Source: a marine gamma proteobacterium HTCC2148
GTDB lineage: Bacteria; Pseudomonadota; Gammaproteobacteria; Pseudomonadales; Halieaceae
Assembly (NCBI GenBank): GCA_000156295.1
Contig: DS999222.1
Span: 64,370 to 128,369 of the forward strand
Reading direction: 5' to 3'
DNA: 64,000 nt
This document shows positions 9,289-39,811 of the stretch, piece after piece. The notes beneath the pieces were generated by a model. The model was given only the letters and a program-made list of their open reading frames with translations, had not been told where the DNA came from and did not search any database. Positions within the stretch are counted from its first letter, which is position 1. The number at the start of each line of letters is the position of its first letter. The translations under genes were made by a program, and so were the position numbers.

Positions 9289-9327
9289 AACGTGATTAAA
9301 GCAAACACAAAGATAGGACGACCATAC

Positions 9328-12878: not shown

Positions 12879-12893
12879 GGCCATTAAAACACT

Positions 12894-14114: not shown

Positions 14115-14118
14115 CGAT

Positions 14119-14553: not shown

Positions 14554-14558
14554 TCATC

Positions 14559-15544: not shown

Positions 15545-16193
15545 ATCAGTCAGCAACGGCGGCTTCACGCTGGTGGAAGTTCTGATCGCGCTGGCGATTA
15601 CTGCCTTCGTGTCGGCGATAGCCTACACCAGCTTCAGCACTGTATTAAGCGGTGTAGAGAGCAGTCAGGTTACGGCGGAGCGCGTGTATCAGCTTAACCG
15701 CGCCTGGATGATGATCTCCCGGGATCTGGAGCAGTTTGTCGCCCGCCCTGTTCGTGATGAGTTCGGCGAACTAGAGCCTGCTCTTCAGGGCGGGATCGCT
15801 GCGCGCTTCCCGCTGAGTTTTACCCGGGGAGGCTGGCACAATCCGGTGGGTCATGCCCGATCTGAATTGCAGCGAGTCAACTACCGGGTTGAGGAAGAAA
15901 CCCTGTGGCGCGATAGCTACCCTGTGTTGGACCGTGCGGGAGAAACGAAAACGCAGGCAGTCGCTTTATTAGAAGGAGTACAAGAGCTGCGGGTGCTGTT
16001 TCTGGATGGTCCAGGGAGCGTGGACACAGTGGGCAGTAGCTCTGAGCTCGATAGTCGAAGTTGGCCAGAGAATTGGGTGCTTGATACCAGCCAGCCGGGC
16101 GCTGCTCTCAATCCACCGTTGGCTGTGGAGTTAACATTACAATTGAGTGACTGGGGCGAAATGAGGCGGATCTATGCGTTACCGCCACTCTAG
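15537..16193 (+). CDS. gspJ: Minor pseudopilin GspJ
   Basis: 218 residues. Prepilin motif G9|F10 in GGFTLVEVLIALAITAF, then the GspJ core with RAWMMISRDLEQFVARPVRDEFGE and FTRGGWHNP. It forms the tip subcomplex with GspI and GspK. The 3' end overlaps gspK by 20 bases, consistent with translational coupling. Confidence 0.93.
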   Translation: MNRSVSNGGFTLVEVLIALAITAFVSAIAYTSFSTVLSGVESSQVTAERVYQLNRAWMMISRDLEQFVARPVRDEFGELEPALQGGIAARFPLSFTRGGWHNPVGHARSELQRVNYRVEEETLWRDSYPVLDRAGETKTQAVALLEGVQELRVLFLDGPGSVDTVGSSSELDSRSWPENWVLDTSQPGAALNPPLAVELTLQLSDWGEMRRIYALPPL

Positions 16194-18428: not shown

Positions 18429-18895
18429 AACAATGGTTTACGGGGCTCACCCAACGCGAGCAGTTGAGCCTGTTAATTATGGGTTTGGCCGTTGCGCTTT
18501 ACCTGGCGTTCGTTATTGTTATCGCGCCCTTGTCGCAGGCTCGCGATCGTATGGTTGTGCAGAATCGCGGTGTAGCGGAATCGCTACAGCGAGTGGAAGT
18601 GCTGGTGTCGCAAATATTGCACTTACGTGAGACTGGCAACGGCAGTTCCACTAATCGAAACCTGGCCAGCCTTGTTAACCGGTCGACCTCAAGCTATCAG
18701 CTGCAGGTAAATCGACTGCAACCCAATAGTCGCGGAGAGCTGCAGGTTCGCCTGGAAAACGCGGTATTTGATGATCTTATTGCCTGGCTGTACCAGGTTG
18801 AATACAAAGAGGGCCTGCGAGTGCTGGAAACCTCTATCACTCAGGCTGGAACTGTTGGCAGGGTTAATGCCACCGTAAGACTGGCCCAGGGATGA
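18425..18895 (+). CDS. gspM: Type II secretion protein GspM
   Basis: 156 residues. N-terminal LTQREQLSLLIMG leads into one membrane segment (about 16-36), then a coiled region and a periplasmic ferredoxin-like domain (YQLQVNRLQPNSRGELQV, FDDLIAWLYQVE) characteristic of GspM. It stabilises GspL in the platform. It overlaps both neighbours by four bases (ATGA junctions). Confidence 0.92.
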   Translation: MKQWFTGLTQREQLSLLIMGLAVALYLAFVIVIAPLSQARDRMVVQNRGVAESLQRVEVLVSQILHLRETGNGSSTNRNLASLVNRSTSSYQLQVNRLQPNSRGELQVRLENAVFDDLIAWLYQVEYKEGLRVLETSITQAGTVGRVNATVRLAQG

Positions 18896-19641
18896 GCCGG
18901 TCGAAGCTCATTCCCAGCTTATTGCTGGGCCTGTTATTTTTGCTAATTCTATTGGCCAGCGCGCCCGCCCGCCTTTTGTTGGCTATATTGCCGGCGGAGC
19001 AGCTCATTCTTCAGGGACTCAGCGGTAGCTTATGGGAGGGCACGGCAAGTCGCGTGCTGGTGAAGAGTGGCAGCGGGTGGCTTCATCTTGGAGCCAGCAG
19101 TTGGAGTCTCAGCCCCCTATCGCTCGTGGTCCTCGCCCCCCGTGTTGAAATTAGTAGTCATTGGGGGCGTCAAACCCTCAATGCTGTGGCAACTCTGCAC
19201 TCGCGCAACGACATCGAGTTTAGCGATGTTGACCTGTTGCTTGATGCTGCCCTGTTGCAGCATTATCTTCCGGTCGGACTAGTGGGAGATATCGCCATGC
19301 AGTTTGAGGAAATCACTATTCGCAACCAATACCCTGAGAGCGCTACAGGGCGAATCGTCTGGCAGAATGGTGGTTGGATGTCACCCCAGGGAAGTCGCCA
19401 GTTGGGGAGTTATGCGGTCGATGTTCAATCCTTGGCCAGCGGTGGTCTCGCCGGAGAGGTCATCAGCCTTGCCGGAGATCTTCAGGCCAATGGTCCGATT
19501 ATACTGGATCAGGAAAATTACAGCGTCGACGTACAGTTATCGGGATCTGGGCTTGATGATCCACAACTGCGACAGGCATTGCAGTTATTAGCGATTCCTG
19601 AGGGTGATACTTATCGGGTCAGACTCAAGGGCAGCCTTTAG
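18892..19641 (+). CDS. gspN: Type II secretion protein GspN
   Basis: 249 residues. One N-terminal membrane segment (about 9-27) precedes a periplasmic beta-rich domain with the family pattern GLSGSLWEGTASRVLV and YSVDVQLSGSGLDDPQLRQAL. GspN occurs in a subset of type II systems; its role is unclear and it is dispensable in some. It is the last gene of the operon. No gspO peptidase, gspAB or pilotin gene lies beside the operon. Confidence 0.9.
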   Translation: MSRSKLIPSLLLGLLFLLILLASAPARLLLAILPAEQLILQGLSGSLWEGTASRVLVKSGSGWLHLGASSWSLSPLSLVVLAPRVEISSHWGRQTLNAVATLHSRNDIEFSDVDLLLDAALLQHYLPVGLVGDIAMQFEEITIRNQYPESATGRIVWQNGGWMSPQGSRQLGSYAVDVQSLASGGLAGEVISLAGDLQANGPIILDQENYSVDVQLSGSGLDDPQLRQALQLLAIPEGDTYRVRLKGSL

Positions 19642-24663: not shown

Positions 24664-25563
24664 TTACTCCAACAGGGTGTTTCGCAAAGTGGTGATATCC
24701 GTATCATCAAGGCCCAATGCCTGGTGCACGTAGTTGTCGAAGCTGCCATATTGTTCGTCGATAGTATCAAAGGCAGCTTGCAGCCAGGCTTCTTCTACCC
24801 CCAGTAAAATGGCGATCTTGTCAGCGGCTTCTTTCCCCTGGAGCAGGCGCACCAGGCTCAGCTCTTGTTGGCGGGCGGCGATGGCGTAGTCGCGACTTAG
24901 CATATAGTCTCTCATGATAACGTCGTCGGGCACTCCGAGTAGTCGCAGTAAAATTGCAGCGGCGAAACCCGTGCGATCTTTTCCAGCGCTACAGTGCCAT
25001 ACGATGGGCTGTCCCTTGGCTTTGAGCACTTCCTGAATGAATTGGCTGAACTGGGGGGTGAATGTTTTGGCGAACTCACGGTTGGCTTCGATCATAAACG
25101 CAGTGGGCTCGAAGCCAGAAAAATCGCCGCTGTCGAATCGTGCGATGATTTCTTCACCGACACTATTGTCTCCTCCGTCCATGATAGGAATCTCGACGAT
25201 TTTGAACGTAGACGATTTGGCAAACTGATTGGGTTCTTCTTCTTTTTCGGCAAGCGAACGAAAGTCGATCAAGGCTTTGAGGGTGAGGCCGTCCAGAACT
25301 TTCTGGTCTGCCCGGCTAGTCTCAGCGAAATTGCCAGAGCGATAAAGCTTACCCCACCTGATCTTTCTGCCTTGTGTGGTGGCGTATCCGCCAAGGTCGC
25401 GAAAATTGCTTATTCCCTCAAAATTCAGCACCCGATGAGCTTCCCGCTGTTCAGCGGGAAGCCGCGACGGGATAACAACCGGTTCTGATGGAATGAACTG
25501 GATAACGGTTATCGATAGTGCAAGGACGGCAAATGCCGACCAGAACAATTTCTTCTTATTCAA
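24664..25563 (-). CDS. Membrane-anchored tyrosine phosphatase-like protein (Y_phosphatase3)
   Basis: About 299 residues from TTG 25563, which has GGAG six bases upstream; the frame stays open to 25647 but those codons overlap the divergent promoter region. A single membrane segment (about 5-22) precedes NFRDLGGYAT, typical of this family, and the P-loop HCSAGKDRTGFAAA with catalytic Cys and Arg. Homologues dephosphorylate phosphotyrosine or phosphoinositides (for example Mycobacterium PtpB and Listeria LipA). Its coupling to cardiolipin synthase (3-base gap) suggests a lipid phosphate as a possible substrate, which is inference. Confidence 0.82.
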   Translation of the reverse strand: MNKKKLFWSAFAVLALSITVIQFIPSEPVVIPSRLPAEQREAHRVLNFEGISNFRDLGGYATTQGRKIRWGKLYRSGNFAETSRADQKVLDGLTLKALIDFRSLAEKEEEPNQFAKSSTFKIVEIPIMDGGDNSVGEEIIARFDSGDFSGFEPTAFMIEANREFAKTFTPQFSQFIQEVLKAKGQPIVWHCSAGKDRTGFAAAILLRLLGVPDDVIMRDYMLSRDYAIAARQQELSLVRLLQGKEAADKIAILLGVEEAWLQAAFDTIDEQYGSFDNYVHQALGLDDTDITTLRNTLLE

Positions 25564-25687
25564 GGTTTCTCCGACTTGGTCCCGCGTGTTCAATGGGGAT
25601 GAGCATAGCATTGCGCGAATCGACGCGCATTGCGGGCAGTATGCCATTCGCTACTGCCCAACGGGGTTATCCCCTATACTGGATCGG

Positions 25688-28252
25688 GTGACTGTGCTTA
25701 ATGAACATTACGGAGATCTCGGTGCTTGTCTGGTTATTATTGACCGGGACAGCCAGCTCGTTCTTGAGTGTCTTGGAACCCTGCCTTTTGCTGTGCCGGA
25801 TGGCGTCAAGGGTCGGGGTTGGCATGATGTGCTAGGAATTCCTGCCGATAGTTCAGCGGTGGTTAGTCAATTCATTGCCGCAGGTATCGCTGCAGCCTTG
25901 CCACCAGTAATCGTGGGAGCCGGCGCAGATGGCGATTTTTTAATGGGCGGCATGACCATGCCACAGCAGTGGCATGGCAAAAACGCCGCGCTATTATTTT
26001 TGCGACCTTTGACCACTCCCTGGGGGCTTGAGGCCGAGATTGACGTGGTCGCTGGTGATATTGTCGCGGTGGTGGGGGTTGATCACCTTGAGTTCAGTCC
26101 TGCCTGGGGCGTGCCTGAGATCGAGAGCCTGATGATGGAACTCCGCTGCGGACTGCGGCAAATACTCAGGGAGGAAGACTGGCTGGGTTTGCCTGAGGGC
26201 AGCACTATTCCTGTCGTACTGCGAGGTCTGGAGCCTGATACAGCCCTGAATGTTTGTCGTGCCTTGTCTTCTCACCTGCATCAGTTTCTTGCCGGATGTG
26301 ACGCCGGTGCTCAGTACGCCAGAACCTGTATAGGCCTGTCGCAGCGGCTGCAGGGCCAGACTTCACTGAGTGCGCTGGTTGCTGCCAATGCTGCTTTGTT
26401 GCAGGCGCAGGCGGGTAGCGTCGAGCAGATACGCTATGCCAGCCCATGGGATCCACTGGGCCAGGCTGCACGTTCATTAAGCGCCACTGGCGCCTTCCGA
26501 GATGCATTGCGCGATGAGCGGCACTGCCGATACCTCGATGCACTTACCGCCCTGCCGCAGTCCCCCAGGCGCCTGTCCGACTACTGTGCTCGAGTGCTGG
26601 AGGCCACTCTCGAACAGGAGGGGCTTGGCGCCGCAGTGCTATTAAAACAGGGCCTCCATCACGAGCTGCTCTGTCTTTCGGCGGCAGTGCGTAGCGAGAA
26701 AGGTATTGAATCAGGTTCAATTGAACGGTTGCCGCGCGCATTGCAGGTTGCTGTCCGCGCCCTGGATGCGGCAGCGCTGGCGTCTTCTCCAATGACCTCC
26801 AGCAATGGGGTTCTCTCCCTGGCACTGCGAACAAGTGCAGGCCTGCAAGGGGCTTTATTGCTATTGCAAGCAGATGAATCGGTTTCGCCTTTTCGGCCTG
26901 ACCCTGCAGCGCTGCAGCTAATAGCGACTGCCCTTGCGAACACTAATGCGTCTGCCAAACCGTCTGTGGAAGAAGTGGGGACTCACTTGCCTACTCCCCG
27001 AAAAATGGAGAAGGGCATTGAAGGCTATGTGCTGGATAACATGGAGGGCGCTATCGATCAGGCGGTTTTTTTGGCGAAGGTTGATATGCCAGTTGCCATT
27101 ATCGGTGAGCAGGGCACGGGGAAAATGTATGTAGCCCAGGTTATTCACGCTGAAGGTGGAGGTGCACCGGAGGCACTAGTGCGCCTGGATTGCCGTGCGT
27201 TTCGTAATCGCAATGAGGCATGGACTCGGATTAGTCGCGAACTGGAACAAGGTCAAGGCAGGTTGTTGGTATTCAAGTCGCCGCAGCTGTTACACCGGGA
27301 AACCCAGAGTCGGCTGGCCAGGCAGTTGGCATCAAGAATCTCCAGTGATGACGGGGGCAGTCACTACCTGGCTGCCAATCGCTACTTGGCGCTGTTCCCT
27401 GAGGATCTAGAGGCACTGGTGGCCCAGGGTGTTCTGGATGAGCGTTTGGCCAGCGTGTTTGCGGGTTACCCCATTATTGTGCCGCCCTTGAGGGAGCGTC
27501 CACGGGCGGTCTTGCGTTGGGCACATAAAATACTGGAACAGGAGAGTACGCTGGCTGATCGACGCGTGTCGGGGTATACCCCCGATGCCGAGCAGGCGCT
27601 CTTGCAGCATGGCTGGGCCGGCAACATCAGTGAGATGCGCTCGGTCATCACCGCGGCGCTGGAGCGTGCCGACAAAGAGTGGATTACACCAGTGGACCTG
27701 GGTTTGTTCATTGGAATCTCGGCTGACGGCAAGGCCGCCGCCGCTAAGGAACGTCCGTTTCTGGCGCGACATGAAGAGGAAGAGTTGGCTCAGTCGTACT
27801 ATGCCCCTACGCTTCTGGAAGAACTGCGCATGACCTTGGGACAATCGCTTGCGGCTTCTCTTGCGACGGACACCCTGCACCCACTGGGGGCGTGGCTAGA
27901 TGATGAGATTATTGAAGCTGCACTGGACCGCTGTGGCGGTGATCCCCGGGGCGCAGCGGAGTATTTGGGCACCCGTAGCCGTAATATTGGCCGCTGGATG
28001 CCCAAGGTCAGGCAAAGTGAGCAACAGCGCGAAGCAAGTCTCCTCTGGCAGGAGAGTCGCCGATTGATCCGAGAGTGGGTGGCGGGGTCATCACCTCAGG
28101 AGGAGGCCCCGCAGCAATTGGCGCAGGATTTACTCATGGCGCTGTTAATGCAGCAAGGCGGTGATTTAAATGTTGCCGATAGAGCCCGGGTGATGGGCGT
28201 TTCAACACCGACCTATCAAAAGCGGGTTAAACAGCTGCTACAGAGCGTTTAG
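25688..28252 (+). CDS. Regulator with a degenerate sigma-54-activator-like AAA+ domain and two Fis-like helices
   Basis: 854 residues from GTG 25688; GTG 25694 is equally possible, and a longer frame to 25493 would overlap the divergent phosphatase. About 420 N-terminal residues look like sensor domains, including a GAF-like part (LEQEGLGAAVLLKQGLHHELL). The AAA+ region keeps Walker A GEQGTGKMY (473-481), PPLRERPR (about 599) and WAGNISEMR (643). The Walker B position reads GRLLVFKSP, without the Asp-Glu of canonical activators, and no GAFTGA loop is visible, so sigma-54 activation is unlikely. Two Fis-like helices follow (CGGDPRGAAEYLGTRSRNI; GGDLNVADRARVMGVSTPT). The chemosensory operon lies downstream. 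Confidence 0.75.
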   Translation: MTVLNEHYGDLGACLVIIDRDSQLVLECLGTLPFAVPDGVKGRGWHDVLGIPADSSAVVSQFIAAGIAAALPPVIVGAGADGDFLMGGMTMPQQWHGKNAALLFLRPLTTPWGLEAEIDVVAGDIVAVVGVDHLEFSPAWGVPEIESLMMELRCGLRQILREEDWLGLPEGSTIPVVLRGLEPDTALNVCRALSSHLHQFLAGCDAGAQYARTCIGLSQRLQGQTSLSALVAANAALLQAQAGSVEQIRYASPWDPLGQAARSLSATGAFRDALRDERHCRYLDALTALPQSPRRLSDYCARVLEATLEQEGLGAAVLLKQGLHHELLCLSAAVRSEKGIESGSIERLPRALQVAVRALDAAALASSPMTSSNGVLSLALRTSAGLQGALLLLQADESVSPFRPDPAALQLIATALANTNASAKPSVEEVGTHLPTPRKMEKGIEGYVLDNMEGAIDQAVFLAKVDMPVAIIGEQGTGKMYVAQVIHAEGGGAPEALVRLDCRAFRNRNEAWTRISRELEQGQGRLLVFKSPQLLHRETQSRLARQLASRISSDDGGSHYLAANRYLALFPEDLEALVAQGVLDERLASVFAGYPIIVPPLRERPRAVLRWAHKILEQESTLADRRVSGYTPDAEQALLQHGWAGNISEMRSVITAALERADKEWITPVDLGLFIGISADGKAAAAKERPFLARHEEEELAQSYYAPTLLEELRMTLGQSLAASLATDTLHPLGAWLDDEIIEAALDRCGGDPRGAAEYLGTRSRNIGRWMPKVRQSEQQREASLLWQESRRLIREWVAGSSPQEEAPQQLAQDLLMALLMQQGGDLNVADRARVMGVSTPTYQKRVKQLLQSV

Positions 28253-28267
28253 AGAGGATTAATAAAC

Positions 28268-28837
28268 ATGGCGGAACACCGTAAAAGCCTGGACGACTGT
28301 GCCAGGGAGTACGCTGAAATGTCACAGGATAAGCTGCCCTCCAGTCTTGGGTTTTCAGCCCGTCTCAACATGCTCTGGGACTTGGCTGGGGTCGCCCCCA
28401 GTCAGTTTGAGGGCAGGGTGCTTGGCGTCATGGCCATCAATACACAGTGGCGGGAAACGGAGATTAGAAAGTGGTTGCAAAAAGACGTGCTACCTCCCCG
28501 CAGCGATCTTCGCAATATGGTTATTTTTCTGGTCGCGCAACTGGGTGAGGGTCAAAGTGTTGAACGCTGGGAGGCATTTTTGATTTATGGCGCGCCAGTG
28601 GTCTCCTCTCCGGTAAATCACGCGATGTACCGCGAGGATCAGGCTCGCCGTGAAATTGCCTCGCTGATTTTTGCCAAGTTGGCTGATGAGTACGGGATTC
28701 CGCCTTCCGCCTATGACGCTGACAAGGCTTTCCAGCGCTGCTTGGGCTTGATGCACAAGTTCAATATCTATGAGATGCAGGACTTTCAGCCGGGCCACCT
28801 GGAGCCCTTCAAGAATTACATGTTTCCGAGCGAGTAG
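28268..28837 (+). CDS. Unknown protein linked to the degenerate regulator
   Basis: 189 residues, mostly helical, soluble and without a signal peptide. I recognise no family. The segment from about 50 to 90 (INTQWRETEIRKWLQKDVLP, then RSDLRNMVIFLVAQL) has the feel of a repressor-type helix-turn-helix followed by a dimerisation helix, but this is weak. It begins 15 bases after the regulator stop, so the two are co-transcribed. A 229-base gap with no convincing gene then separates it from the chemosensory operon. Confidence 0.7.
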   Translation: MAEHRKSLDDCAREYAEMSQDKLPSSLGFSARLNMLWDLAGVAPSQFEGRVLGVMAINTQWRETEIRKWLQKDVLPPRSDLRNMVIFLVAQLGEGQSVERWEAFLIYGAPVVSSPVNHAMYREDQARREIASLIFAKLADEYGIPPSAYDADKAFQRCLGLMHKFNIYEMQDFQPGHLEPFKNYMFPSE

Positions 28838-29066
28838 CCTCATTTTCTCTAGTTGGTAGTGATTTTCCGTAATTTCTGGAGAATTGCCCTTGTTTTCGCC
28901 GCCATATTGCCCCTTGCGGTCCGTAGGGGCGCTCGGCAAGGCGATTCCCTTCGTTTTCTGCACAAATCTCCAGTTTATGGTTGCCGGTAGATTTCGCCGC
29001 CTGAAATACTGTCGGGGCTATAACCCATGTGAAAACTCACACTACTGACACGAAGTGAGGGCAGTA

Positions 29067-29477
29067 ATGAACGAACAAACCGAAGAGATGGACATCAGCG
29101 GCGTAAAAATCGCCATTGTAGATGATGCCAAGACGATTCGTATGATGATGTCCCACACCCTGAAAGGCATGGGCTGTGAGGTCGAGTGTGCAGAGGACGG
29201 TTACAAAGCCCTGGGTATGCTGCGTCGCTTCAAGCCAGACCTGATCTTCCTGGATATTACTATGCCGGAACTGGACGGATACCAGACCTGCACGTTGATC
29301 CGCAATGCGGAAGACACCCGGGACACGCCGGTGGTGATGCTCTCCTCATCAGATGGAATTTTTGATATCGCCAAGGGGCAAGCTCGTGGTGCAACAGCCC
29401 ATGTCACTAAAATTCCCCCTGAGAGCGTTTTGCGTCAATTGATCTTTAACCACACCAAGCAGCGTCGCGCTGCCTGA
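29067..29477 (+). CDS. CheY-like single-domain response regulator (PilG type)
   Basis: 136 residues from ATG 29067 with GAGGG six bases upstream. The receiver domain has the acidic pair in IVDDAKTIR, phospho-acceptor D63 in IFLDITMPELDGYQTC, the switch Ser in VVMLSSSDG and the conserved lysine K115 in VTKIPPES. In most CheY-like proteins Pro follows this lysine; here Ile does. DGYQTC and MLSSSDGIFDIAKG are PilG-like signatures. PilG signals to twitching-motility or cAMP outputs in Pseudomonas. It is the first gene of a seven-gene operon; the downstream gene starts 4 bases later. Confidence 0.88.
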   Translation: MNEQTEEMDISGVKIAIVDDAKTIRMMMSHTLKGMGCEVECAEDGYKALGMLRRFKPDLIFLDITMPELDGYQTCTLIRNAEDTRDTPVVMLSSSDGIFDIAKGQARGATAHVTKIPPESVLRQLIFNHTKQRRAA

Positions 29478-29481
29478 TCGC

Positions 29482-30048
29482 ATGGCTCCCTCGGCTATAC
29501 AGTCCCTGGATGCTCTCGAGCAACGCTTTCGTGAGGATGCGGTGGAGGCCCCAGTGCAAGATCTGGAGCGCATGGAGTGGGTGGGCACCTGCCTGAGTAT
29601 TGCTGGTGTCCCGTTGCTGATAGGTGAAGGTGAGCTTGAGGAAATTATTGAAACACCCAACGTGATGGCTATTCCCGGTACCAAACCCTGGGTTCAGGGT
29701 GTGGGCTCGCACATGGGCGGGCTTATTCCCATCATCAGCGGTGATGTTTTTTTTCGCAAACGACCTTACAGCGGCCGCGTGCGAGATTACTGCATGGTAT
29801 TGCGCCGCCCTGGCTTTTATTTCGGTATTACCCTGAGCGGATTAGAGCGGGATATGAAGTTTTTGGTGGAAACTCGTGACATGACAGTGACCACCGATCC
29901 CGATTTTGCCGAATACACACTGGGCGGTTTTCCCGACCAGGATCGCGTGCTGGCGGTGCTTGATATCGATAAATTGATTGCGGACAGCGACTTATCCAAC
30001 GCTGCTGCTAATGACCCTGATTCACCCGAGGAACGGACCAATGATTAA
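29482..30048 (+). CDS. CheW-like adaptor (PilI type)
   Basis: 188 residues with a CheW-like fold: RMEWVGTCLSIAGVPLLIGE, GTKPWVQGVGSHMGGLIPII and MVLRRPGFYFGITLSGLE. In PilI these couple the receptor PilJ to the ChpA kinase. A 25-residue acidic tail (DSDLSNAAANDPDSPEE) ends the protein. It starts 4 bases after the response regulator and overlaps the receptor gene by 8 bases. Assignment to PilI rests on order and CheW features; sequence identity cannot be measured here. Confidence 0.82.
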   Translation: MAPSAIQSLDALEQRFREDAVEAPVQDLERMEWVGTCLSIAGVPLLIGEGELEEIIETPNVMAIPGTKPWVQGVGSHMGGLIPIISGDVFFRKRPYSGRVRDYCMVLRRPGFYFGITLSGLERDMKFLVETRDMTVTTDPDFAEYTLGGFPDQDRVLAVLDIDKLIADSDLSNAAANDPDSPEERTND

Positions 30049-32137
30049 GACAGAAAAAATTGGAGCCAACAAAATGCGCGCCTTGCTAATGGGGCTGGGT
30101 ATTCTGGCCTGTCTGGGAGGAGTGGCCTACAGCTTTTTCATCATACAACAAGAGTCAGGGCACGAAAGTCACTACGGCACCGCCACTGATGAGTTGGCTA
30201 GCCTGGCTCGTCAGGTTGCTATAAGCGTCCAGGCGACAGAGCAAGGCGACGAACAGACTTTTATCGAGCTCGCTGACCAGGAGGCTCAGTTCGAGGCGCA
30301 ATTAGCGCTTATTGATGCGCCTGAGCTTAATGACGAAATTAGCATCGTTGATCTGAATTGGCAGCCGGTCAAGCGTGCGTCGCAGACACTGTTGGAAGCA
30401 GCTCCACGTATTGTGTTTGTTCGCGGTGTTGCTACCGAGCTGGAAAAAAATATGAAACCCATGCAGCGCGAGCTGTCATCGGTTGTCACCGTGTTACAGC
30501 GCCAGCGAGTCTCTCCAGAAACGCTGGTAGCAGCGCAAAAGGCGCCCTGGATGTTGGAGCGTATGGCTCGTAATATCGACCGCATCCTGGTTGGCAATGC
30601 TGATAGTCAGGTCGCTGCCGACCAGTTCACCACAGATGCAGCCGACTTCTTCCGGATTATCGAGGGCTTGACCCGAGGTGATGAACTGCTTGGAATTAAC
30701 AAGGTAAACAACACCTCCGCGATTGAGGCGTTGAGTAACGCGTTTCGTTTGTTTTCGGGTGTTTCAACTTCTGTAGACCGCATCGCAGGCGCCTCAACAG
30801 AGTTGCGCCAGGCGGCATCTGCCCGTAAAACCATCGCCGAAAATAGTGTTCCGCTTATTGATGCAATCGCCAGCCTCCAGCCGGCTATTGCCAGTTTAGC
30901 GGTAGGGCGTCTTTACGACACGAGGAACCTGTTCATTCTGTTCGTAGCGCCGGGTTTACTCGCCGTCGCGCTGCTGGTGACCATGGTATTGGGTCAGCGT
31001 CGAAGAGATTCTTATACTGCAAAAGGAGTTGCCGAAATTAATGGCGCTCTGGCGCATATTTCCAAAGGAGACCTCACGGTTACGGTCGCAGAAACCAACT
31101 CTGTGACCAGTGGCGTTGCTCAGGGTCTTAATGCCGCGACCCAGAATCAGTGTCAACTGGTTCGAGAAATACGCGCGCCTTTTGAAACTTCGGTCAGGGA
31201 AATTAGCAGTATTGGAGAGAGTGCACGCGCCCAGGTTGATAAAGGACGTGAGCTCACTCGTTCTGTCGTTGACTCGACTGAAACAGCCACTGAAATGGTG
31301 CGTACCAGTGAAGAGATTAAAGCTTCCACCGCGGAGGCCGCTGAGACTTCCGATAGCAACTGTCAGAAAGTTGCTCAGGGTTACGAGCTGACCAAGGATA
31401 TGTCCAAGGCTTCGGTGGATGTGCGTGAGTCTGTTCAGGAAACATCAAAGTCTGCCAAGCGACAAGGTGAACTTATTCAGTCAGTAACTGCGGCTGCCGA
31501 ATATATTCAGGCGCTCAACACCAAAATATCAGTGGTCGCGATTAATACGCGTATTGAGGCCGAGAAAGCCGGTGAGTATGGCAGGCCGTTCCTGGGTATT
31601 GCTGAATCCATCGCTGACCTTCTGCGAGAGGCTGAAGAAGAGGGTCGAAAAATTATTTCGGAGGTACGCATGTTGCAGAACATGTCTGCCGATAACCTGG
31701 CCAGTATGGAGAATACGGTGGGTACGGTTGTTACCATCCTCGAGTATATCGACCGACTGGATAGTTCGCTGGAGGAAATTAACTCGGGCTCCGATGCGAT
31801 CAGCGACATCATCCGGAATGTAGATGACGCTGCTGGCAAGTCGGCAGTTAACGCCTTGCATATGAGTAGTTCAATGGCAGAAATCAGCGAACGGAATCTT
31901 GAGATCACTGAACTGAATGAAGTCGCGCAAAAGGGCGTGAATTCGCTTCAGCAATCGATGCGCAGTGCTGCCAGCAATCTTGGTCAATTCCGTATCGATA
32001 ACGATTCTGCCTACCAGGCTACAAGCGGTGGTGATGTTGAGGGCCTGGATAACATCCGTGCCGCCAACCAGGGCTACCGCGAAAAAGAAATGAGTGCTCT
32101 GGACATAGCACAGCAAAAGCAACGCGCTTCAGTATAA
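30041..32137 (+). CDS. Methyl-accepting chemotaxis protein (PilJ-like) with divergent tip
   Basis: 698 residues from ATG 30041 (GAGGAACGG upstream); the longer frame from 29978 lies inside pilI. TM1 is at about 12-36 and TM2 at about 296-318, enclosing a periplasmic helical domain of about 260 residues of PilJ size. A HAMP-like linker and a long coiled cytoplasmic domain follow. At the protein-interaction tip (about 500-520) the sequence is INTRIEAEKAGEYGRPFLGI; canonical receptors have NA-IEAARAGE-GRGFAVVA. The E-GR core is kept but FAVVA is not. It lies directly upstream of the HPt and kinase genes and should feed their signalling complex. Confidence 0.85.
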   Translation: MIKTEKIGANKMRALLMGLGILACLGGVAYSFFIIQQESGHESHYGTATDELASLARQVAISVQATEQGDEQTFIELADQEAQFEAQLALIDAPELNDEISIVDLNWQPVKRASQTLLEAAPRIVFVRGVATELEKNMKPMQRELSSVVTVLQRQRVSPETLVAAQKAPWMLERMARNIDRILVGNADSQVAADQFTTDAADFFRIIEGLTRGDELLGINKVNNTSAIEALSNAFRLFSGVSTSVDRIAGASTELRQAASARKTIAENSVPLIDAIASLQPAIASLAVGRLYDTRNLFILFVAPGLLAVALLVTMVLGQRRRDSYTAKGVAEINGALAHISKGDLTVTVAETNSVTSGVAQGLNAATQNQCQLVREIRAPFETSVREISSIGESARAQVDKGRELTRSVVDSTETATEMVRTSEEIKASTAEAAETSDSNCQKVAQGYELTKDMSKASVDVRESVQETSKSAKRQGELIQSVTAAAEYIQALNTKISVVAINTRIEAEKAGEYGRPFLGIAESIADLLREAEEEGRKIISEVRMLQNMSADNLASMENTVGTVVTILEYIDRLDSSLEEINSGSDAISDIIRNVDDAAGKSAVNALHMSSSMAEISERNLEITELNEVAQKGVNSLQQSMRSAASNLGQFRIDNDSAYQATSGGDVEGLDNIRAANQGYREKEMSALDIAQQKQRASV

Positions 32138-32143
32138 GAACTA

Positions 32144-32178
32144 GCAAAGAGCCGCGCGGGTCTATGCCGCGTCTTTGC
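32144..32178 (+). promoter_or_regulatory. Hairpin between the receptor and HPt genes
   Basis: GCAAAGA (32144-32150) pairs with TCTTTGC (32172-32178). An inner CGCGG (32155-32159) pairs with CCGCG (32167-32171) after a four-base bulge. No T run follows; it may stabilise or process the operon mRNA rather than terminate it. Confidence 0.35.
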
Positions 32179-32203
32179 GCATACTAAAACCGGAGGTTTA
32201 GTA

Positions 32204-34615
32204 GTGGCCATTAAAACTGATATCGTCGCCCTCAAGTGGGTGGTAGGCCTGATGAACAAGCAAGCAGAGAATGCCGAAGCTTCGCTTGTCGAATACAGCA
32301 ACGATACAAGCCAAAAAAAGCCTCTGCTGCAGTGTATGTGGGCAGTTCACCAGATTACATCCACGCTCAGGGCGCTGGGTATGGGCAAGGGTGAAATGCT
32401 GACGCTGGAGATGGAACGCAGTCTGAACTATCTCTACAAAGACAAGGTCGTCGGTGAACGTCAAAAACTGACCATGGGTGGACTGATGCAAGCGCTTAAA
32501 GTGCTGCCAGCCTATCTAGCTCACGCCGAGAACGCGCGTGCAGACACTGGTCATGGACTGGAACAGCACGTCAATGATTTACGACGCTGGATAGGCGAGA
32601 GGCCCAGGCCCGCAGCTTTCTTCTTCCAAATGAATATTCCTGAGGGCCGCGGCATCACTGTGGATGGCACACCAGAAGATTCTGAGGAAGTGCGAGAGCG
32701 GGCGAATGTGATGCTCACGCTGTACCTGGAAATGGCCAAGATGGCCCTGCGTCGCAAAAATGTTGGCGAGAGCATGAAAACCGTCGCTCGTATTTCACGT
32801 CGCATGCAGACAATGTTCTCTGGTACTGAGCCAGAGCGCTTCTGGTTCACAATGGTGGGTATTTGTGAAGGTATGGCCGGTGGCCTGATTGTTCCTGACG
32901 AATGTATCGCGCAGATATTCAAGTCCGGCGCATTCATGATCAAGTATGCTCGCGAAAATGGAGTAGAAGTCGATGAGTCGGTTGACTACGACAACCTGCA
33001 GCAGCAGATGTTGTTTTACATTGCCAGCTGCCAGGCCAAGCCTGTGCATATTGCCCGGATTCGCCAAGTTTTTTCAATTGATGACAACACGCTTGAAGAG
33101 GCTAATCGTGGCCTGATTCACATGGATGCTTTAGTGACAGCGCTCAGTTCAGCCCTGGAGCGGCTGAATGGGGTTGAAAATTATCTTAACTCCCTGGACC
33201 TCACCGAGGCTGCGCGTTCTGCAGATATTGAGTTGGACCCCAAGGCTTTAGATGGCATAGAAGCCACCCAGTATCGACTGGAAGCGGCGGGACAGATGGC
33301 CCATGCAGATTCCTTGCGTTCGGTGCAGGGTCGTCTGACAAAACTTTTCGGTGGTGTTTACAACGAGTCGCCTTCCCAGATGAACCAGGCAATCAACGAT
33401 ATAATCCGCGGTATCGTAGGTGTGAAGCTTGATATCGAGCATAAGCTGGAGCACGGGCTTTGCAGTTCATTTTCCAGCCGTGAATTTGAGCTCAGAGAAA
33501 GTGTGGTTACGGCGACTTTCAACCATATGGGCCTGGTTGAAAACTACATGCACCAGATTCTTCGTCGCAAGGAATTGGCGAGCGCCTTGGCACGAAAACC
33601 CAATGACCCGCAATCAACGCTGCGGCTCACAGTGGCGCTTAATCGCCATCTCAATAAAACTGATCAAGGGTATGAGGCGCTGCGGCAGTCAGTGCGCGAT
33701 GCAGATGCTGGTCAGCCGGATCTTGATTTGCTGTTTATTCAAGCCAAGGAATTTCTCAATGAGCAGGAAACCATATCCGATCGCAAAGCGATCGATATGT
33801 CCCTGCAGCTACTGGCGGAAATTTCCGGTGCCTTGGGCTTTGCCGGCATGGAGCGTGAGGCTCAGATTATCGAGCGCTGTCAGCTCTGGCTGGCAGCAGC
33901 CAGCAAAGGCGGTGCAGTCAGGGAGGACGATGCTTTCCGCTGTTTCGCAGAGGCTTTTGCTCAATTAGAGCTTCATCTACAGCGATCAATTGCTGATCCG
34001 CTGGACGATACTTCCCACATGTTGGCGATCGCAGAGCAGCGCGCTGCCCAACTGGATGACCATGCAGCGGGATTATCAGACGGTGCCGAAGTCGTTACTA
34101 CCAGTTGGACTGAACCTAAAAATTACGTTGAAGACGCTGAGGTTCCCGCTGAATTTCGCGAAGTCTTTATCGAAGAGTCTGAGGAAATTGTTCAGGAAAT
34201 CAGCCGTCTCACTCCACTGTGGTTGCAGCAACGAGAAGATCAGGAAATGTTGCGTGAGATTCGTCGCCACTTTCATACTTTTAAAGGCAATGGCCGCGCC
34301 GTAGGTGCCAATATTCTGGGTGAGCTGGGTTGGTCTGTACAGGATATGCTGGACCGGGTTCTGGATGGGGATTTAAAAGTATCGCCGGCGATTGAGGGCC
34401 TTCTTAAAGAAGTAGTCGCTGCACTGCCTGATTTGGTGATGTCCTACAAGGAAGAAAACGCCTGGGATCCCAGTCATGTTCGGCTGTTAACTGATCGCGC
34501 GTTTCGTATTGCTGAAGGTGGCCAGGAAGATATGGCCGCAGGTTTATCCCAGGTTGAAGAAAATGTACACGGAGGTGCGGACGACGCACCTGTCTCCGAA
34601 ACGCTGGGACAGTAG
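32204..34615 (+). CDS. HPt-containing protein equivalent to the N-terminal part of ChpA
   Basis: 803 residues from GTG 32204 with a strong GGAGGT. The first 110 residues resemble the degraded HPt that opens Pseudomonas ChpA: WAVHQITSTLRALGMG, then MLTLEMERSL. The middle (about 150-620) is helical with no motif I can name. A canonical HPt sits near the C-terminus, RHFHTFKGNGRAVGA with H691. No ATPase, CheW or receiver domain is present. In Pseudomonas these parts belong to one chain with the kinase; here the stop at 34615 is followed by a separate start at 34650, so the function is divided. It may act as a phosphotransfer or docking subunit. Confidence 0.82.
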   Translation: MAIKTDIVALKWVVGLMNKQAENAEASLVEYSNDTSQKKPLLQCMWAVHQITSTLRALGMGKGEMLTLEMERSLNYLYKDKVVGERQKLTMGGLMQALKVLPAYLAHAENARADTGHGLEQHVNDLRRWIGERPRPAAFFFQMNIPEGRGITVDGTPEDSEEVRERANVMLTLYLEMAKMALRRKNVGESMKTVARISRRMQTMFSGTEPERFWFTMVGICEGMAGGLIVPDECIAQIFKSGAFMIKYARENGVEVDESVDYDNLQQQMLFYIASCQAKPVHIARIRQVFSIDDNTLEEANRGLIHMDALVTALSSALERLNGVENYLNSLDLTEAARSADIELDPKALDGIEATQYRLEAAGQMAHADSLRSVQGRLTKLFGGVYNESPSQMNQAINDIIRGIVGVKLDIEHKLEHGLCSSFSSREFELRESVVTATFNHMGLVENYMHQILRRKELASALARKPNDPQSTLRLTVALNRHLNKTDQGYEALRQSVRDADAGQPDLDLLFIQAKEFLNEQETISDRKAIDMSLQLLAEISGALGFAGMEREAQIIERCQLWLAAASKGGAVREDDAFRCFAEAFAQLELHLQRSIADPLDDTSHMLAIAEQRAAQLDDHAAGLSDGAEVVTTSWTEPKNYVEDAEVPAEFREVFIEESEEIVQEISRLTPLWLQQREDQEMLREIRRHFHTFKGNGRAVGANILGELGWSVQDMLDRVLDGDLKVSPAIEGLLKEVVAALPDLVMSYKEENAWDPSHVRLLTDRAFRIAEGGQEDMAAGLSQVEENVHGGADDAPVSETLGQ

Positions 34616-34649
34616 GGGTCTGGCTAAACAATGAAAATGGAGAATCAAC

Positions 34650-37600
34650 GTGCAATCTGACAACGAAAACGCCTTGGTAGCTGATTCCGCTGTTGACACC
34701 ACTATCGAAAGCTCCAAGGAGCGCACACTTCAATGGTTGATGGAGTTGGATAGGGATGAGCCGGAAGAGAGCCTGTTCGTGGTCGACAGCCAGCAGACCG
34801 CTGACTTGAGTTTGAGTGCTTTTGAAGCAGAGGTTGCTGCCAGACCAATGACCCGAGGACGTATCGGTGCTGATGATCTGGATACATACATCGGCGAAGA
34901 AATTGTGCTTTCAGAAACGGGCGGCAATGACATTTACACCAACAGTGCCGTTGAAGAAAATGCTGATATCGAAGAAGACGCCTTTGAAGGTCTGATGGCC
35001 ATCGAGTTCTCCCGTGTGTCCAATGAGGAAGCTGAGGGATTGGCGGAGAATGTGCAGGATGGTAGCGATATCCTGGGTCTGGAAGATGACGACGATATCG
35101 GTGACTCTTATCTCGTGGTCAAACGGGTGAAGAAGCCCGTGGAGCTTGCCGAGGAAAGTCAGCCATCCGCGCAAGTTCAGGACCCTGTGATTGAGGAGAT
35201 TGTTGCAGCGCCGCCGCCCGCGGATGTCGCTGACTACGTGCACAGCAACGAGGTTCCTCATGACGACAAGGAATTTGATGACTTCCTGGCGGCCGGACAT
35301 GATTTGGCGATTAGTGAAGAGGATTTTGAAGGTCTTAGTCTCGAAGCCATTAATGATCAGTTCGCTGCAGATGCGAACATAGACAGCGACCTGGATTTGC
35401 ATGCAGATTTTGTTGCCATGGATGATTTTGGCGAAAATTTGATGGCCGTGATCACGCCCTGTCTCTCTGGCTTTATGGAAGAGCTTAATGCTTCGATTGC
35501 GGCCAGATTGGCGGTCATGGGACGCGATGGCGATCAGGTTCTGGCGGATGTGTCGGTGGCGACCGACACTGAAACGGCCCAGCTTGCACTGCAGCAAGGT
35601 TATGAGCCTCTCTCACACATTTGCACGCAAGTACCCGAGGCGCTGGCAGAGCTGGATGTCTCGCAGCGCGATGCAATTTTGCTGCGCCTGACTGATGCCA
35701 GCAACGGTGAGACTTGTAATCGTTTGTTGCTTGAGGGCGCCCTAAAGGTTTCTCCGGTGCAACTGGCAGAGCCAGAGTTAACCCAGGTGCCAAACGCCGA
35801 GCTTGAGAGTGAGAGCTTTGTTTATGCTCCAGAGGCGGAGCCTCCCGCAGAGGATTGGGCTCCTGCCACTGATGAATACGAGGCCATTTTCGACGAACTT
35901 AGTGATACTGACTTTGACCTGGACTTTGATGCATCTGCTGGCGATGGTCCAATAGACATGGCAGAGGCTGTTGAAGAAATTCTTGCAGAAGAGTTCGTTG
36001 CAGATGATGAACAGACGCTGGAGTTGTTCGAAGAGAACCTGTTTGAGGTCGAGCTCAGTGCGGCAAAGGATGAACTGGCTCCCGTGTCTCCTGAAGACAT
36101 TGATGATGTATTCAGCGATCTGGGTGTGGAGACTGAGACTGCAGGAGAAGTGTGTGGCGTAGAGTTTGAAGAGTTTGCTGAAGCTACCCCGGAAGCTGCA
36201 GAGCATACTGCGCCTCAGTTCGATGAGCTGCCTGGCGTCGCTGCACTGTCGAGCGATGCAACCGAAGACATGTCCTGGTGTATTCCTGAGGGAATCAAGT
36301 TTAGCTACAGCAGTCCTGGCGGAAGCGAAATCTTCGCGGAATTTCTGGACGCCTTTATTGAAGAGGGCTCGTCGGAGCTGGAAAAGCTTGAAGACGCGAT
36401 AAGCGCCTGGGAAGCTGAGGTTGCATCTGATGCCGCTTACACTCAGGTCACCCGGATCCTGCACACGATCAAAGGTATTGCCAAGGGCGTTGGGCTGCAT
36501 TACTACGGCACTTTGATTCATAATTTTGAAACATTGCTAGAATCTGTGGCTCGTCCAGCCGCAGAGCAAGAGCAGGGATATTTCCGTGTGGTAAACGCCT
36601 GGCTGGACGCGGCCGTTCGCGGCATGGATTTTGTGCAGGGCAATCGCCAGGATATTCTCAGCGAATTTCCCGGTGGCATGGCTGCAGCGGCTGCAAACGA
36701 AAAACAAACTGCGACCGCCGAAGTGGTTGTGCCAACGGCTGAGGATGCAACGCCGGAACCGGCGCTGCAGTCTGATCCTGAGCAGGCAAGAAAGGCGGCA
36801 GCTGATTCTCTTCGTAAGAAAGAAGATAAAAAATTGGCGGACGAAGGTGCACGTGCCCTGGCTGCACAGCAGTCTGTGCGCATTACCTCCGAGAAGCTGG
36901 ACCTGTTGTTGAATTTGACTAATCAGGCCCAGCAGCTGGGTGTTCGCACGGCGCAGAGCACAACTCGTAACAAGCGCGCGTCTGCCGAGTTGCAGGGTCG
37001 TTTGTCTTCCGTACGTGCGCACATCGCTGACATCGCAGACCGCGCGCTTTTTAATGTTACGGCTCGCGGCAGTGCCCATTCTGCAGAGCTGGACGCCCTG
37101 GAAATGGATCAGTACACCGAGCTGCAGGAAGCGGCTAATATTTTGCGCGAGGGAGTGGAAGATCTGGCTGATCTTATTGAGCTGGCCAGTCGGCATAATT
37201 CGCAGGCCGAGGCGTTACTGAAGCAACAGGCCACTGTTATTGGCTCAATAGGTTCCTCTATCCGCGCCGCCAGAGTCGTTCCAGTGTCGCGTTTGATGCC
37301 TGGTCTAAGACGATTAGTGCGCACCGTAAGTAATGACCTGGGTAAAGAGGTGGCTTTCCGCGTCAGCAACGAGGTTGGCACTCTGGATCGCGATGACTAC
37401 GCTCGCTGCCAAACGATTCTCGAACACATGGTGCGCAATGCGTTGGATCACGGTATCGAGTCCTCCGCAGATCGCATGGCGCAGGGAAAACCTTCTGTAG
37501 GCCAGATTACTGTTGATGTGCGTATGTCCGGCGCTGACTCGGTCATTGTGTTGTCAGACGATGGCCGTGGGATCAATCCCGAGGCTATGCGCGAGTCCGC

Positions 37601-38678
37601 TGTTCGCAAAGGACTGGACGTCGACGCCTATGCGCTCAGTGACGAAGAGGCTTTGAAACTCGTATTCCACAAAGGCTTTTCCACGGCCGCCGCTCTCAGT
37701 CAAATTTCAGGACGCGGTGTAGGCATGGATATCGTGCTCAGTGAACTGCAACAGATGGGTGGTGATATTCAGATCGAGTCTGAGGTGGGCAAGGGCACGT
37801 CCTTCCATATCCGGATTCCCTCTAATGTGACGGTGAACGGTGCTTTGTTGGTCACCGCTGGAGACAACTCTTATGCGATACCCCTCGGTGGGCTGGTGTC
37901 TGTGGATGAAGTGCCCGTTGAAACATTTTTTGCCGCTGTAGAGAGTGGCGAAAAGTTGCAGATGTCCGGTGTGGCCTGTGAACCTGCATATTTAGGTACG
38001 CTTTGTAACAGTGGCAACTTGCCTGAGCGTTCAACCTGGCGTAATACCCTGCCGGTGATTATCGCAGGCTCTGAAGCTCGATACATGGCTATCGCCATTG
38101 ATGACGTAGAGGAAGCCCTGGAGCTTGTTATTCGCTCGCTGGGGGCCCAGTTTGCCTCCGTGCCCGGCGTTGCCGGGGCCGCGACTACTGCTGATGGTGA
38201 GGCGGTGGTTGCGCTTGACCTGAACGTATTGGTCAGTTGCTTTGAGGAAGGGCAGGGCACCGCAGTGCCAGCCGATCAACCAGAGGAAGAAAAATTTTTG
38301 GCCCTGGTGGTGGACGACTCGCGAACGCAACGCATGGTTGCCACCAGTCAACTGGAAACCGTCGGGATTGAAACAGCCACGGCGGAGAACGGTGCGGTCG
38401 CTATTGATTGGCTTAATACCACCGAGCACCTACCCGATGTGATTTTGCTGGATGTTGAAATGCCGGTGAAAGATGGTATCCAGACCCTGCGCGAAATTCG
38501 TAAGTCAGCCCGTTACAGTCATATTCCGGTAATCATGATTACCTCTCGTACCGGTGTGAAACACCGCACCCTGGCGGAAGAAGCTGGATGTAATGGATAC
38601 ATGGGTAAGCCTTTTAATTTCCGCATGTTGATCGGTCAGATCAATGAGTTGACGGGACACCGTCTTGAGTTGGGCTGA
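34650..38678 (+). CDS. CheA-type hybrid histidine kinase (ChpA C-terminal equivalent)
   Basis: 1342 residues from GTG 34650 with GGAGA upstream. Residues 1 to about 540 are very acidic and low in motifs. HPt: RILHTIKGIAKGVGL with H605. A dimerisation helix region (about 740-860) precedes the HATPase with N box LEHMVRNALDHGIES, G1 LSDDGRGINPE and G2 SGRGVGMDIV (about 1018). A CheW-like domain (about 1065-1190) and a receiver domain (ALVVDDSRTQR, D1268 in ILLDVEMP, K in MGKPF) complete it. All catalytic motifs look intact, so this should be the operon's active kinase. Only one HPt is on this chain; the rest of ChpA's N-terminus is on the preceding gene. Confidence 0.9.
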   Translation: MQSDNENALVADSAVDTTIESSKERTLQWLMELDRDEPEESLFVVDSQQTADLSLSAFEAEVAARPMTRGRIGADDLDTYIGEEIVLSETGGNDIYTNSAVEENADIEEDAFEGLMAIEFSRVSNEEAEGLAENVQDGSDILGLEDDDDIGDSYLVVKRVKKPVELAEESQPSAQVQDPVIEEIVAAPPPADVADYVHSNEVPHDDKEFDDFLAAGHDLAISEEDFEGLSLEAINDQFAADANIDSDLDLHADFVAMDDFGENLMAVITPCLSGFMEELNASIAARLAVMGRDGDQVLADVSVATDTETAQLALQQGYEPLSHICTQVPEALAELDVSQRDAILLRLTDASNGETCNRLLLEGALKVSPVQLAEPELTQVPNAELESESFVYAPEAEPPAEDWAPATDEYEAIFDELSDTDFDLDFDASAGDGPIDMAEAVEEILAEEFVADDEQTLELFEENLFEVELSAAKDELAPVSPEDIDDVFSDLGVETETAGEVCGVEFEEFAEATPEAAEHTAPQFDELPGVAALSSDATEDMSWCIPEGIKFSYSSPGGSEIFAEFLDAFIEEGSSELEKLEDAISAWEAEVASDAAYTQVTRILHTIKGIAKGVGLHYYGTLIHNFETLLESVARPAAEQEQGYFRVVNAWLDAAVRGMDFVQGNRQDILSEFPGGMAAAAANEKQTATAEVVVPTAEDATPEPALQSDPEQARKAAADSLRKKEDKKLADEGARALAAQQSVRITSEKLDLLLNLTNQAQQLGVRTAQSTTRNKRASAELQGRLSSVRAHIADIADRALFNVTARGSAHSAELDALEMDQYTELQEAANILREGVEDLADLIELASRHNSQAEALLKQQATVIGSIGSSIRAARVVPVSRLMPGLRRLVRTVSNDLGKEVAFRVSNEVGTLDRDDYARCQTILEHMVRNALDHGIESSADRMAQGKPSVGQITVDVRMSGADSVIVLSDDGRGINPEAMRESAVRKGLDVDAYALSDEEALKLVFHKGFSTAAALSQISGRGVGMDIVLSELQQMGGDIQIESEVGKGTSFHIRIPSNVTVNGALLVTAGDNSYAIPLGGLVSVDEVPVETFFAAVESGEKLQMSGVACEPAYLGTLCNSGNLPERSTWRNTLPVIIAGSEARYMAIAIDDVEEALELVIRSLGAQFASVPGVAGAATTADGEAVVALDLNVLVSCFEEGQGTAVPADQPEEEKFLALVVDDSRTQRMVATSQLETVGIETATAENGAVAIDWLNTTEHLPDVILLDVEMPVKDGIQTLREIRKSARYSHIPVIMITSRTGVKHRTLAEEAGCNGYMGKPFNFRMLIGQINELTGHRLELG

Positions 38679-38687
38679 GGTGATTCT

Positions 38688-39140
38688 GTGAGCGAGAAAA
38701 AACAGCGAATGTGTGTGCTGTTGCCCTGTGCATCTAACAGGCGGTGGGCCGTCCCACAGAGTTGCCTCGCAGAAATACTGACTCTGCCTGCTCAGGGTGA
38801 AGCCGCCCCTGCTTGCGTTCAGTGGCGCGGTTTGAGTATCCCCGTGATGGATTTTGGGGCCCAGGGCAAGCTGCCGTTCCGGGACGCGCAAAATGGTACC
38901 GGCCTGATCGCGGTTATTCTGGGTGTGCGCGGCTCCGGTTGCGACTACTGGGGTCTGGCGCTGCGCGGCAGTGGCCTGACCGTGAGGCATATCGACGAAA
39001 GCGAATGCCAGGATAAGCCAGAGGCTTTGCAGGAGTACTCTCTGGCGGCATTTGAGCTTGACGGACAAACTTATCAAGTGCCGGACTTGCCCGCATTGCA
39101 GGGTTTGGCGACAGAAATGGATTCTGCGGCCTCCGCCTGA
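38688..39140 (+). CDS. CheW-like protein (ChpC type)
   Basis: 150 residues from GTG 38688 with GAGGTG upstream. CheW-like features include RRWAVPQSCLAEI, VQWRGLSIPVMDFGAQG and YWGLALRGSGL. ChpC is the second CheW of Chp systems and connects additional receptors to the kinase. The fold is short and divergent, so the type is uncertain. It starts 9 bases after the kinase gene. No chpB methylesterase or pilK methyltransferase accompanies it. Confidence 0.72.
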   Translation: MSEKKQRMCVLLPCASNRRWAVPQSCLAEILTLPAQGEAAPACVQWRGLSIPVMDFGAQGKLPFRDAQNGTGLIAVILGVRGSGCDYWGLALRGSGLTVRHIDESECQDKPEALQEYSLAAFELDGQTYQVPDLPALQGLATEMDSAASA

Positions 39141-39716: not shown

Positions 39717-39738
39717 CACACGGGCAGGAGCCTGTGTG
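39717..39738 (+). promoter_or_regulatory. Hairpin at the start of a 5' leader
   Basis: CACACGGGC (39717-39725) pairs with GCCTGTGTG (39730-39738), nine pairs including one G-T, around the tetraloop AGGA. It would sit at the very 5' end of the transcript from the promoter at 39680-39708. Confidence 0.4.
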
Positions 39739-39811
39739 CGGTGGATTCGGCCAGTGTACCTGGACAAGGCCACCTTCGAGGGATTGGACAATAATATGCA
39801 GGGAGTCAGCC

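Follow-up and report, generated by a model that had tools for sequence, protein, structure and literature searches.

A predicted pseudo-ATPase regulator of the enhancer-binding protein type and its partner gene upstream of a split-ChpA chemosensory operon in Halieaceae

Sensor II of the AAA+ domain plays a role in bacterial enhancer-binding proteins (bEBPs), the activators of sigma-54 promoters, and the derivatives of these proteins that act independently of sigma-54 carry REC or ACT-PAS sensors. The roles of the GAFTGA loop, the Walker B motif and the arginine fingers in bEBPs are described in the excerpted text of PMC7175178. Members of this class without GAFTGA have been reported at sigma-70 promoters, among them Rhodobacter capsulatus NtrC (RcNtrC), Vibrio cholerae VpsR, Caulobacter NtrC and E. 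coli TyrR (excerpts of PMC10274813 and PMC6375630), and ATP binding, not hydrolysis, is named as essential for RcNtrC in the excerpt of PMC10274813. Such regulators without sigma-54 contact are known singly, chiefly through loss of the L1 loop, whereas the gene family described here represents a whole lineage in which the motifs that serve hydrolysis, subunit sensing and contact with sigma-54 have disappeared together, with the P-loop kept and the domain strongly constrained. Its representative, termed pseudo-bEBP, is encoded at positions 25688..28252 of a 64,000-nucleotide stretch (the window) of the marine gamma proteobacterium HTCC2148 (GenBank assembly GCA_000156295.1, contig DS999222.1, positions 64,370 to 128,369). 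All features given below in the form start..end are located on the + strand. The family is a natural experiment on the contribution of an AAA+ domain to a regulator unable to burn ATP.

With a probability of roughly 0.6, the pseudo-bEBP is a sigma-54-independent, DNA-binding regulator with a maintained pseudo-ATPase AAA+ domain that, together with the 189-aa product of the following gene (p189), controls the adjacent chp chemosensory operon and is gated by nucleotide and/or cyclic di-GMP (c-di-GMP). The evidence for the dead AAA+ domain came from an alignment of one frame per genome, comprising 52 family members and, as controls, seven bEBPs encoded in the genome of the window. The P-loop was readable in 50 of the 52 members, since L131 is truncated by the end of its contig and the frame of L132 is interrupted at this point, and GxxGTGK was kept in all 50, with an intact Walker A GEQGTGK (27104..27124) in the window's copy. 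The Walker B Asp is replaced by Lys in 52/52 members and the Glu by Ser (47), Tyr (4) or Cys (1), whereas both acidic residues are present in 7/7 controls; the target reads LLVFKSP at this position (27263..27283). Between the P-loop Lys and Walker B, 51 residues were counted in 49 of the 50 readable members and 49 residues in the remaining one; for the controls the count was 65 (six proteins) or 68 (one protein). On account of this shortened spacing relative to most controls, a 14-residue deletion is placed over the GAFTGA region, which is present in all seven controls (once as GSFTGA); the corresponding stretch of the target is DCRAFRNRNEAWT (27188..27226). Both arginine fingers are absent from every family member (LDERLASVF in the target, 27434..27460) but retained in 6/7 and 7/7 of the controls, the T-N/H/D pair of sensor I was changed to F/L-P/C, and the sensor II Arg, invariant in the controls, has given way to Ser in 49 members and to Thr in three (WAGNISEM in the target, 27614..27637). 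The switch Asn became Asp in 47 of 51 members and was retained in four.

These data corroborate the sequence-only reading of the locus, which had described a Walker B position without its Asp-Glu pair and a missing GAFTGA loop next to a retained Walker A, PPLRER and WxGN, all three of which are present in the target. Both losses proved consistent throughout the family alignment, and the alternative that an intact Walker B or GAFTGA might lie elsewhere in the protein found no support, as a pattern check over all 919 aa of the frame revealed neither GxFT nor a hydrophobic-DE stretch. The losses of both arginine fingers and of the sensor II Arg and the 14-residue deletion extend the earlier list. 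Since the same changes recur in 52 members and are set against seven intact bEBPs of the same genome, they are not attributable to chance or bad alignment. As judged from the motifs, the family derives from sigma-54 activators and has a dead AAA+ domain. With Walker B, the fingers, sensor II and the L1 loop all gone, the usual ATP-driven sigma-54 mechanism is strongly disfavoured, and the protein was not classed as a sigma-54 activator because the defining features were looked for and found missing. In all likelihood the family is bEBP-derived and sigma-54-independent, and it probably regulates by a route other than sigma-54 remodelling.

The open reading frame 25493-28252 (+) encodes 919 aa from its first ATG, and the stop-to-stop frame opens at 25439. 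The proteins of relatives start in line with the GTG at 25688, which makes this codon the likely start of an 854-aa product, in agreement with the gene limits proposed earlier. The AAA+ core and lid of the bEBP type (aa about 442-675, 27011..27712) were recognised by Pfam above the gathering scores, with 44.2 bits for PF14532 (cut-off 25), 35.5 for PF25601 (27) and 29.6 for PF00158 (20.2), and the nearest solved chains by sequence were the AAA+ domains of NtrC1, PspF, VpsR and ZraR. The ratio of nonsynonymous to synonymous substitution rates (dN/dS) of the AAA segment was computable for 12 of 13 orthologue pairs tried and ranged from 0.018 to 0.128, being lower than that of the N-terminal part in 12/12 pairs and lower than that of the C-terminal part in 11/12. 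Several of the dS values approach saturation, and some bases counted with the N-terminal part may lie upstream of the true start. The strong constraint on the AAA segment is independent of the exact dN/dS values. Since the P-loop is kept and dN/dS is low, the domain seems to be retained for binding or assembly.

The target thus shares with RcNtrC, VpsR, Caulobacter NtrC and TyrR a bEBP-type AAA+ domain without GAFTGA, a loss that was checked in the target and is taken for the other four from the cited excerpts. VpsR is also among the matches of the target, both by sequence (E 1.7e-11) and by the fold of the lid (Z 12.5, root-mean-square deviation (rmsd) 1.5, 73 residues aligned). In the present family Walker B, sensor I, both fingers and the sensor II Arg are lost as well, further losses that VpsR, RcNtrC and TyrR may share to some extent, and the family combines PAS, GGDEF-like and GAF sensors with a fixed partner gene, unlike the sigma-54-independent derivatives of bEBPs. 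Caulobacter NtrC still requires its Walker B Asp according to the excerpt of PMC10274813, whereas the present family has Lys. A further likeness exists to FleQ and FlrA, bEBP-derived regulators linked to c-di-GMP (excerpt of PMC12564702), FleQ being homologous to the target in the AAA domain. FleQ, however, is described in the same excerpt as an ATPase that binds c-di-GMP at its AAA+ domain, whereas in the target the catalytic motifs are lost and the predicted site resides on a separate dead GGDEF domain.

The N-terminal region was analyzed with an AlphaFold2 (AF2) model of the target that was built from seven sequences (mean pLDDT 65.3, pTM 0.35). Structural comparison by VIA-align placed aa 1-109 (25688..26014) on a PAS fold (4m4x; Z 12.4, rmsd 2.5, 101 aligned), aa 109-256 (26012..26455) on a GGDEF fold with LapD as nearest chain (Z 14.7, rmsd 2.5, 139 aligned) and aa 270-425 (26495..26962) on a GAF fold (3cit with Z 12.9, rmsd 3.5 and 136 aligned; 4g3k with Z 12.5). 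Pfam PAS models matched one to three of 23 members. The GGDEF-like identity was settled by a profile of 33 long frames, representing 32 family members and a divergent protein of genome G418, which matched solved GGDEF chains (7e6g, E 4.4e-8; 3ign, E 7.7e-7); the five alignments displayed are free of gaps between RxxD and the end of the A-site. The Pfam GGDEF model found 26 of the 33 frames at E<=1, the window's copy scoring 15.3 bits and hence falling short of the 23.8 required. GGDEF was not listed when the whole target was scanned with Pfam, and the profile of a 7-row alignment (A3) was uninformative, with 0.2% probability for the domain of the window.

The GG(D/E)EF motif was kept in none of the 33 long frames, the target reading PEGST at this position (aa 169-173, 26192..26206). 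The I-site motif RxxD, on the other hand, is preserved in 30 of them, including REED of the target (aa 161-164, 26168..26179), and was lost in L016, L099 and L101. Its Arg (30/33) and Asp (31/33) rank among the better conserved positions, with variability at both residues in between. A degenerate A-site together with a kept RxxD is the pattern given for the c-di-GMP receptor PopA in the excerpt of PMC12564702, and the excerpt of PMC4877007 describes SgmT as a c-di-GMP-binding protein with a degenerate GGDEF domain. For the long forms of the family, c-di-GMP binding is a prediction. The target resembles PopA, SgmT and LapD in its GGDEF fold, the lost A-site and the kept RxxD, but differs in that the domain is joined to a pseudo-AAA+ and a helix-turn-helix (HTH) output and is missing from the short forms.

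These forms were assigned by frame length in a tree of 51 rows, consisting of 50 family members and the G418 protein, the placement of which is unsure owing to a very long branch. The tree contained 18 short rows with AAA and HTH only, 17 middle rows, one of which (L101) is cut by a contig end, and 16 long rows. The short label requires three changes, at least two of which are forced by well-supported branches, and L020 and L082, which make up one short group, are nested together with a long form; as far as the tree goes, sensor loss is likelier than gain. The coexistence of long, middle and short forms allows the sensor to be separated from the core.

With respect to its distribution, the pseudo-bEBP was detected at E<=1e-30 in 23 of 58 genomes sampled from the genus, family and order (the own genome included), all 23 belonging to one family, and at E<=1e-60 in 52 of the 140 genomes searched from the Halieaceae family group. 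The named loci come from Seongchinamella, Pseudohalioglobus, Mangrovimicrobium and Halioglobus, the first of which is assigned to Halieaceae in the NCBI taxonomy. A class-wide sample of 369 genomes yielded two matches at E<=1e-25, the own genome and an ordinary bEBP with GAFTGA and LLLDE (G589). A literature search by titles and the beginnings of abstracts, with most subscription journals outside its coverage, returned no paper on this family.

The partner gene p189 (28268..28837) was found in 54 of the 140 genomes, namely in the same 52 as the pseudo-bEBP and, as divergent copies, in G417 and G418. It is located on the same strand and starts 2-157 positions after the matched end of the pseudo-bEBP in 52/52 genomes, and both genes occur in the same 23 genomes of the sample of 58. 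A search with the p189 profile for relatives outside the family matched 10 of 390 order genomes, all of them in family f1. The copy of G417 sits at the edge of a contig, the examined stretch of which yielded no bEBP; that of G418 adjoins a divergent pseudo-bEBP. By eye, this G418 protein (L117) shows the arrangement REC-PAS-GGDEF-GAF-AAA*, and its P-loop Lys is replaced by Arg (GSSGTGR). No Pfam family and no relevant Pfam match for XRE were obtained for p189, the N-terminus of which appears XRE-like by eye and reached Z 4.2-5.6 with EspR, XRE, 434 and lambda repressor chains, unrelated chains scoring at similar Z. At E<=0.001, Foldseek returned no match from the PDB or viral libraries, and phrogs gave weak matches only.

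A candidate operator was identified in the gap between p189 and the receiver gene that opens the chp operon. In 19 of 22 loci, a 32-base block near TTTCTGGAGAAAACTCCAGTTTTTGGTTGCTG is present with no more than 10 mismatches, whereas the best of 200 single-base shuffles per region had 11-16 mismatches; for L042 the comparison covered the final 465 bases of the gap. The dyad core of the block is close to CTGGAG-AAAA-CTCCAG in the relatives (CTGGAGAAAACTCCAG), and the block comparison located a copy in the window at 28958..28973 (CTGCACAAATCTCCAG). The distance between the dyad and the end of the gap is 96-116 bases, even where the gap extends over 0.8-1.1 kb. In 16 genomes the exact pattern CTGGAG-WWWW-CTCCAG occurs at most twice per genome and is present in seven, six of which have one site upstream of chp. 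Exact dyads elsewhere (G007 and G001) lie in one case inside a frame and in the other about 80 bases before an unrelated frame, and these stretches share no match. TTG(C/A)TG and AATACT were seen by eye after the dyad in relatives; nothing was picked up there when the window was scanned with a consensus. The dyad was also considered as an intrinsic terminator and rejected, as its position tracks the receiver gene and not p189 and its left arm changes without compensation; alternatively, it may be a leader element. CRP/Vfr-like sites (TGTGA-N6-TCACA) with at most one mismatch form the best site of the same gap in 15 of 22 loci (for example L030, L031, L032, L034 and L037); they vary in place among the loci, were counted without a shuffle control, and the window holds only a site with two mismatches.

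Under the proposed mechanism, the AAA+ domain, with P-loop and lid retained, no longer catalyses hydrolysis, senses ATP between subunits or has a loop to contact sigma-54, and a ligand in the P-loop pocket would alter the assembly of the regulator on DNA. In the long forms, c-di-GMP at the I-site of the dead GGDEF domain would have such an effect as well. The regulator, possibly in contact with p189, would then set the transcription of the split-ChpA operon, up or down, the probable site of action being the dyad ahead of a putative sigma-70-like promoter, where either protein may be the one that binds. A more specific version is put forward tentatively and is doubtful in its entirety: the protein would be a P-loop-only pseudo-ATPase in which the Walker B Lys may lock the nucleotide without Mg2+ or hydrolysis, the long forms would be gated by c-di-GMP, and the pair would act on an operator occurring about once per genome and switch chp from a sigma-70 promoter.

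Several observations weigh against the regulation of chp by a ligand-gated pseudo-bEBP. The AF2 model is poor over the AAA part (block pLDDT mostly 26-54). RxxD is carried by five of the five ordinary GGDEF chains shown, and its retention is no proof of binding. The 18 short rows of the tree have no GGDEF domain, and a search of the short-form loci with the N-terminal profile detected no detached sensor gene (no match at E<=10 among frames of at least 200 aa); therefore, c-di-GMP is not essential to the core function. The dyad is weak in L044, L045 and L049 (8, 10 and 9 mismatches, respectively) and missing in L047, L048 and L050, and the window's own copy is degenerate and outside the exact pattern. 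It is also absent from L053 of genome G036, in which the pair is present and chp is gone; because the dyad goes with chp, it may belong to another regulator.

The last point leads to the alternative that the pair regulates something other than chp, the operon being a neighbour retained by vertical descent, an explanation that we consider improbable. Its basis is that G036 and G416 contain the pair and no match to chpN, a gene of the split ChpA, that orf137 follows p189 in L053 after about 320 bases with no chp gene match in the stretch, and that the divergent pair of G418 (L117:5001-8609) is situated beside cysS. The assemblies of G036 and G416, however, are 70% and 60% complete and come from one genus, and the order pair-receiver-chp is maintained over many genera. 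Split chpN gave matches in 57 of the 140 genomes, in six of which the sole match was weak and directed to a long unsplit frame; 49 of the 51 strong matches share a genome with the pseudo-bEBP and thus cover 49 of the 52 pair genomes, counts that were drawn from related, non-independent genomes. The pair occurs without strong chpN in G036, G416 and G433, and chpN without the pair in G022 and G431, both fragmented assemblies. Control of chp by the pair is preferred. The location directly upstream of the chemosensory operon that had been stated before is nearly correct, with p189 intervening.

According to a second and clearly weaker alternative, the target is a signalling adaptor that serves the chemosensory system through protein contacts, its HTH segments being vestigial. 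This would fit the lower dN/dS of the AAA segment in comparison with the C-terminal part and the first Fis-like HTH (27905..28009), which was recognised by HTH_8 with E 0.0096 and 16.1 bits and hence under the gathering score of 22. The NCBIfam models of PspF, NtrC and NifA align into this segment. Its helices, however, were confidently modelled by AF2 (block pLDDT 86-89). The second HTH-like segment (ADRARVMGVSTPTYQKR, 28109..28246), which was delineated by eye and without a family match, likewise forms helices in the AF2 model, and GVSxPT..K is well conserved there throughout the family (GVSxPTYQK). DNA binding is the probable output of the pseudo-bEBP.

Very unlikely is a residual action at sigma-54 promoters, by which the target would poison the hexamers of intact bEBPs or bind DNA without remodelling. 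The retained lid and P-loop and the presence of intact bEBPs in the same genome are compatible with such a role, but the arginine fingers of the subunit interface are lost, and no sigma-54-type site (TGGCAC-N5-TTGCW, at most two mismatches) was detected in the gap between p189 and chp. The window as a whole contains 42 such sites, no more than the chance mean of 49.1, and a sigma-54 promoter upstream of chp was rejected. That the target is a decaying gene or an alignment artefact, as the disappearance of nearly every catalytic motif might suggest, is practically excluded by identical substitutions in 52 orthologues, the P-loop in all readable copies and the low dN/dS of the dead domain.

The chp operon (29055..39140), as delineated by Pfam, synteny and co-occurrence, encodes a receiver, CheW, a methyl-accepting chemotaxis protein (MCP), an 803-aa Hpt protein, a 1342-aa CheA-type protein and a further CheW. 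The 140-aa receiver (29055-29477) is extremely conserved and shares 99% identity with its counterparts at five further loci within the genus. ChpA is split into the 803-aa and 1342-aa proteins (32204-38678), and unsplit ChpA frames of 1782-2066 aa were found in other genomes of the family, both kinds being present in G002, G003 and G014. The chp clusters L038 and L039 of G002 and G003 match the receiver and both ChpA parts and gave no match to CheW188 or the MCP. Two small genes without a Pfam match (39167-39562 and 39734-40147) are located at the end of the cluster and occur in the same place in several relatives.

The C-terminus at the left edge of the window (2-448), to which the sequence-only reading had related the target, is akin to it at the superfamily level, and any closer kinship was rejected. 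The whole gene (L036:2750-4318) encodes an ordinary bEBP of 522 aa with intact GETGVGKE, GAFTGA and SLFLDE, and it is not among the seven own-genome matches of the target at E<=0.01, which include the window's copy itself. By eye, the left-edge protein has an FHA-like N-terminus, and its gene adjoins that of a Ser/Thr protein kinase (458-1864). The region 9292-19641 of the window holds a type II secretion cluster, in which the secretin, GspE, GspF and GspK were assigned by Pfam on four frames.

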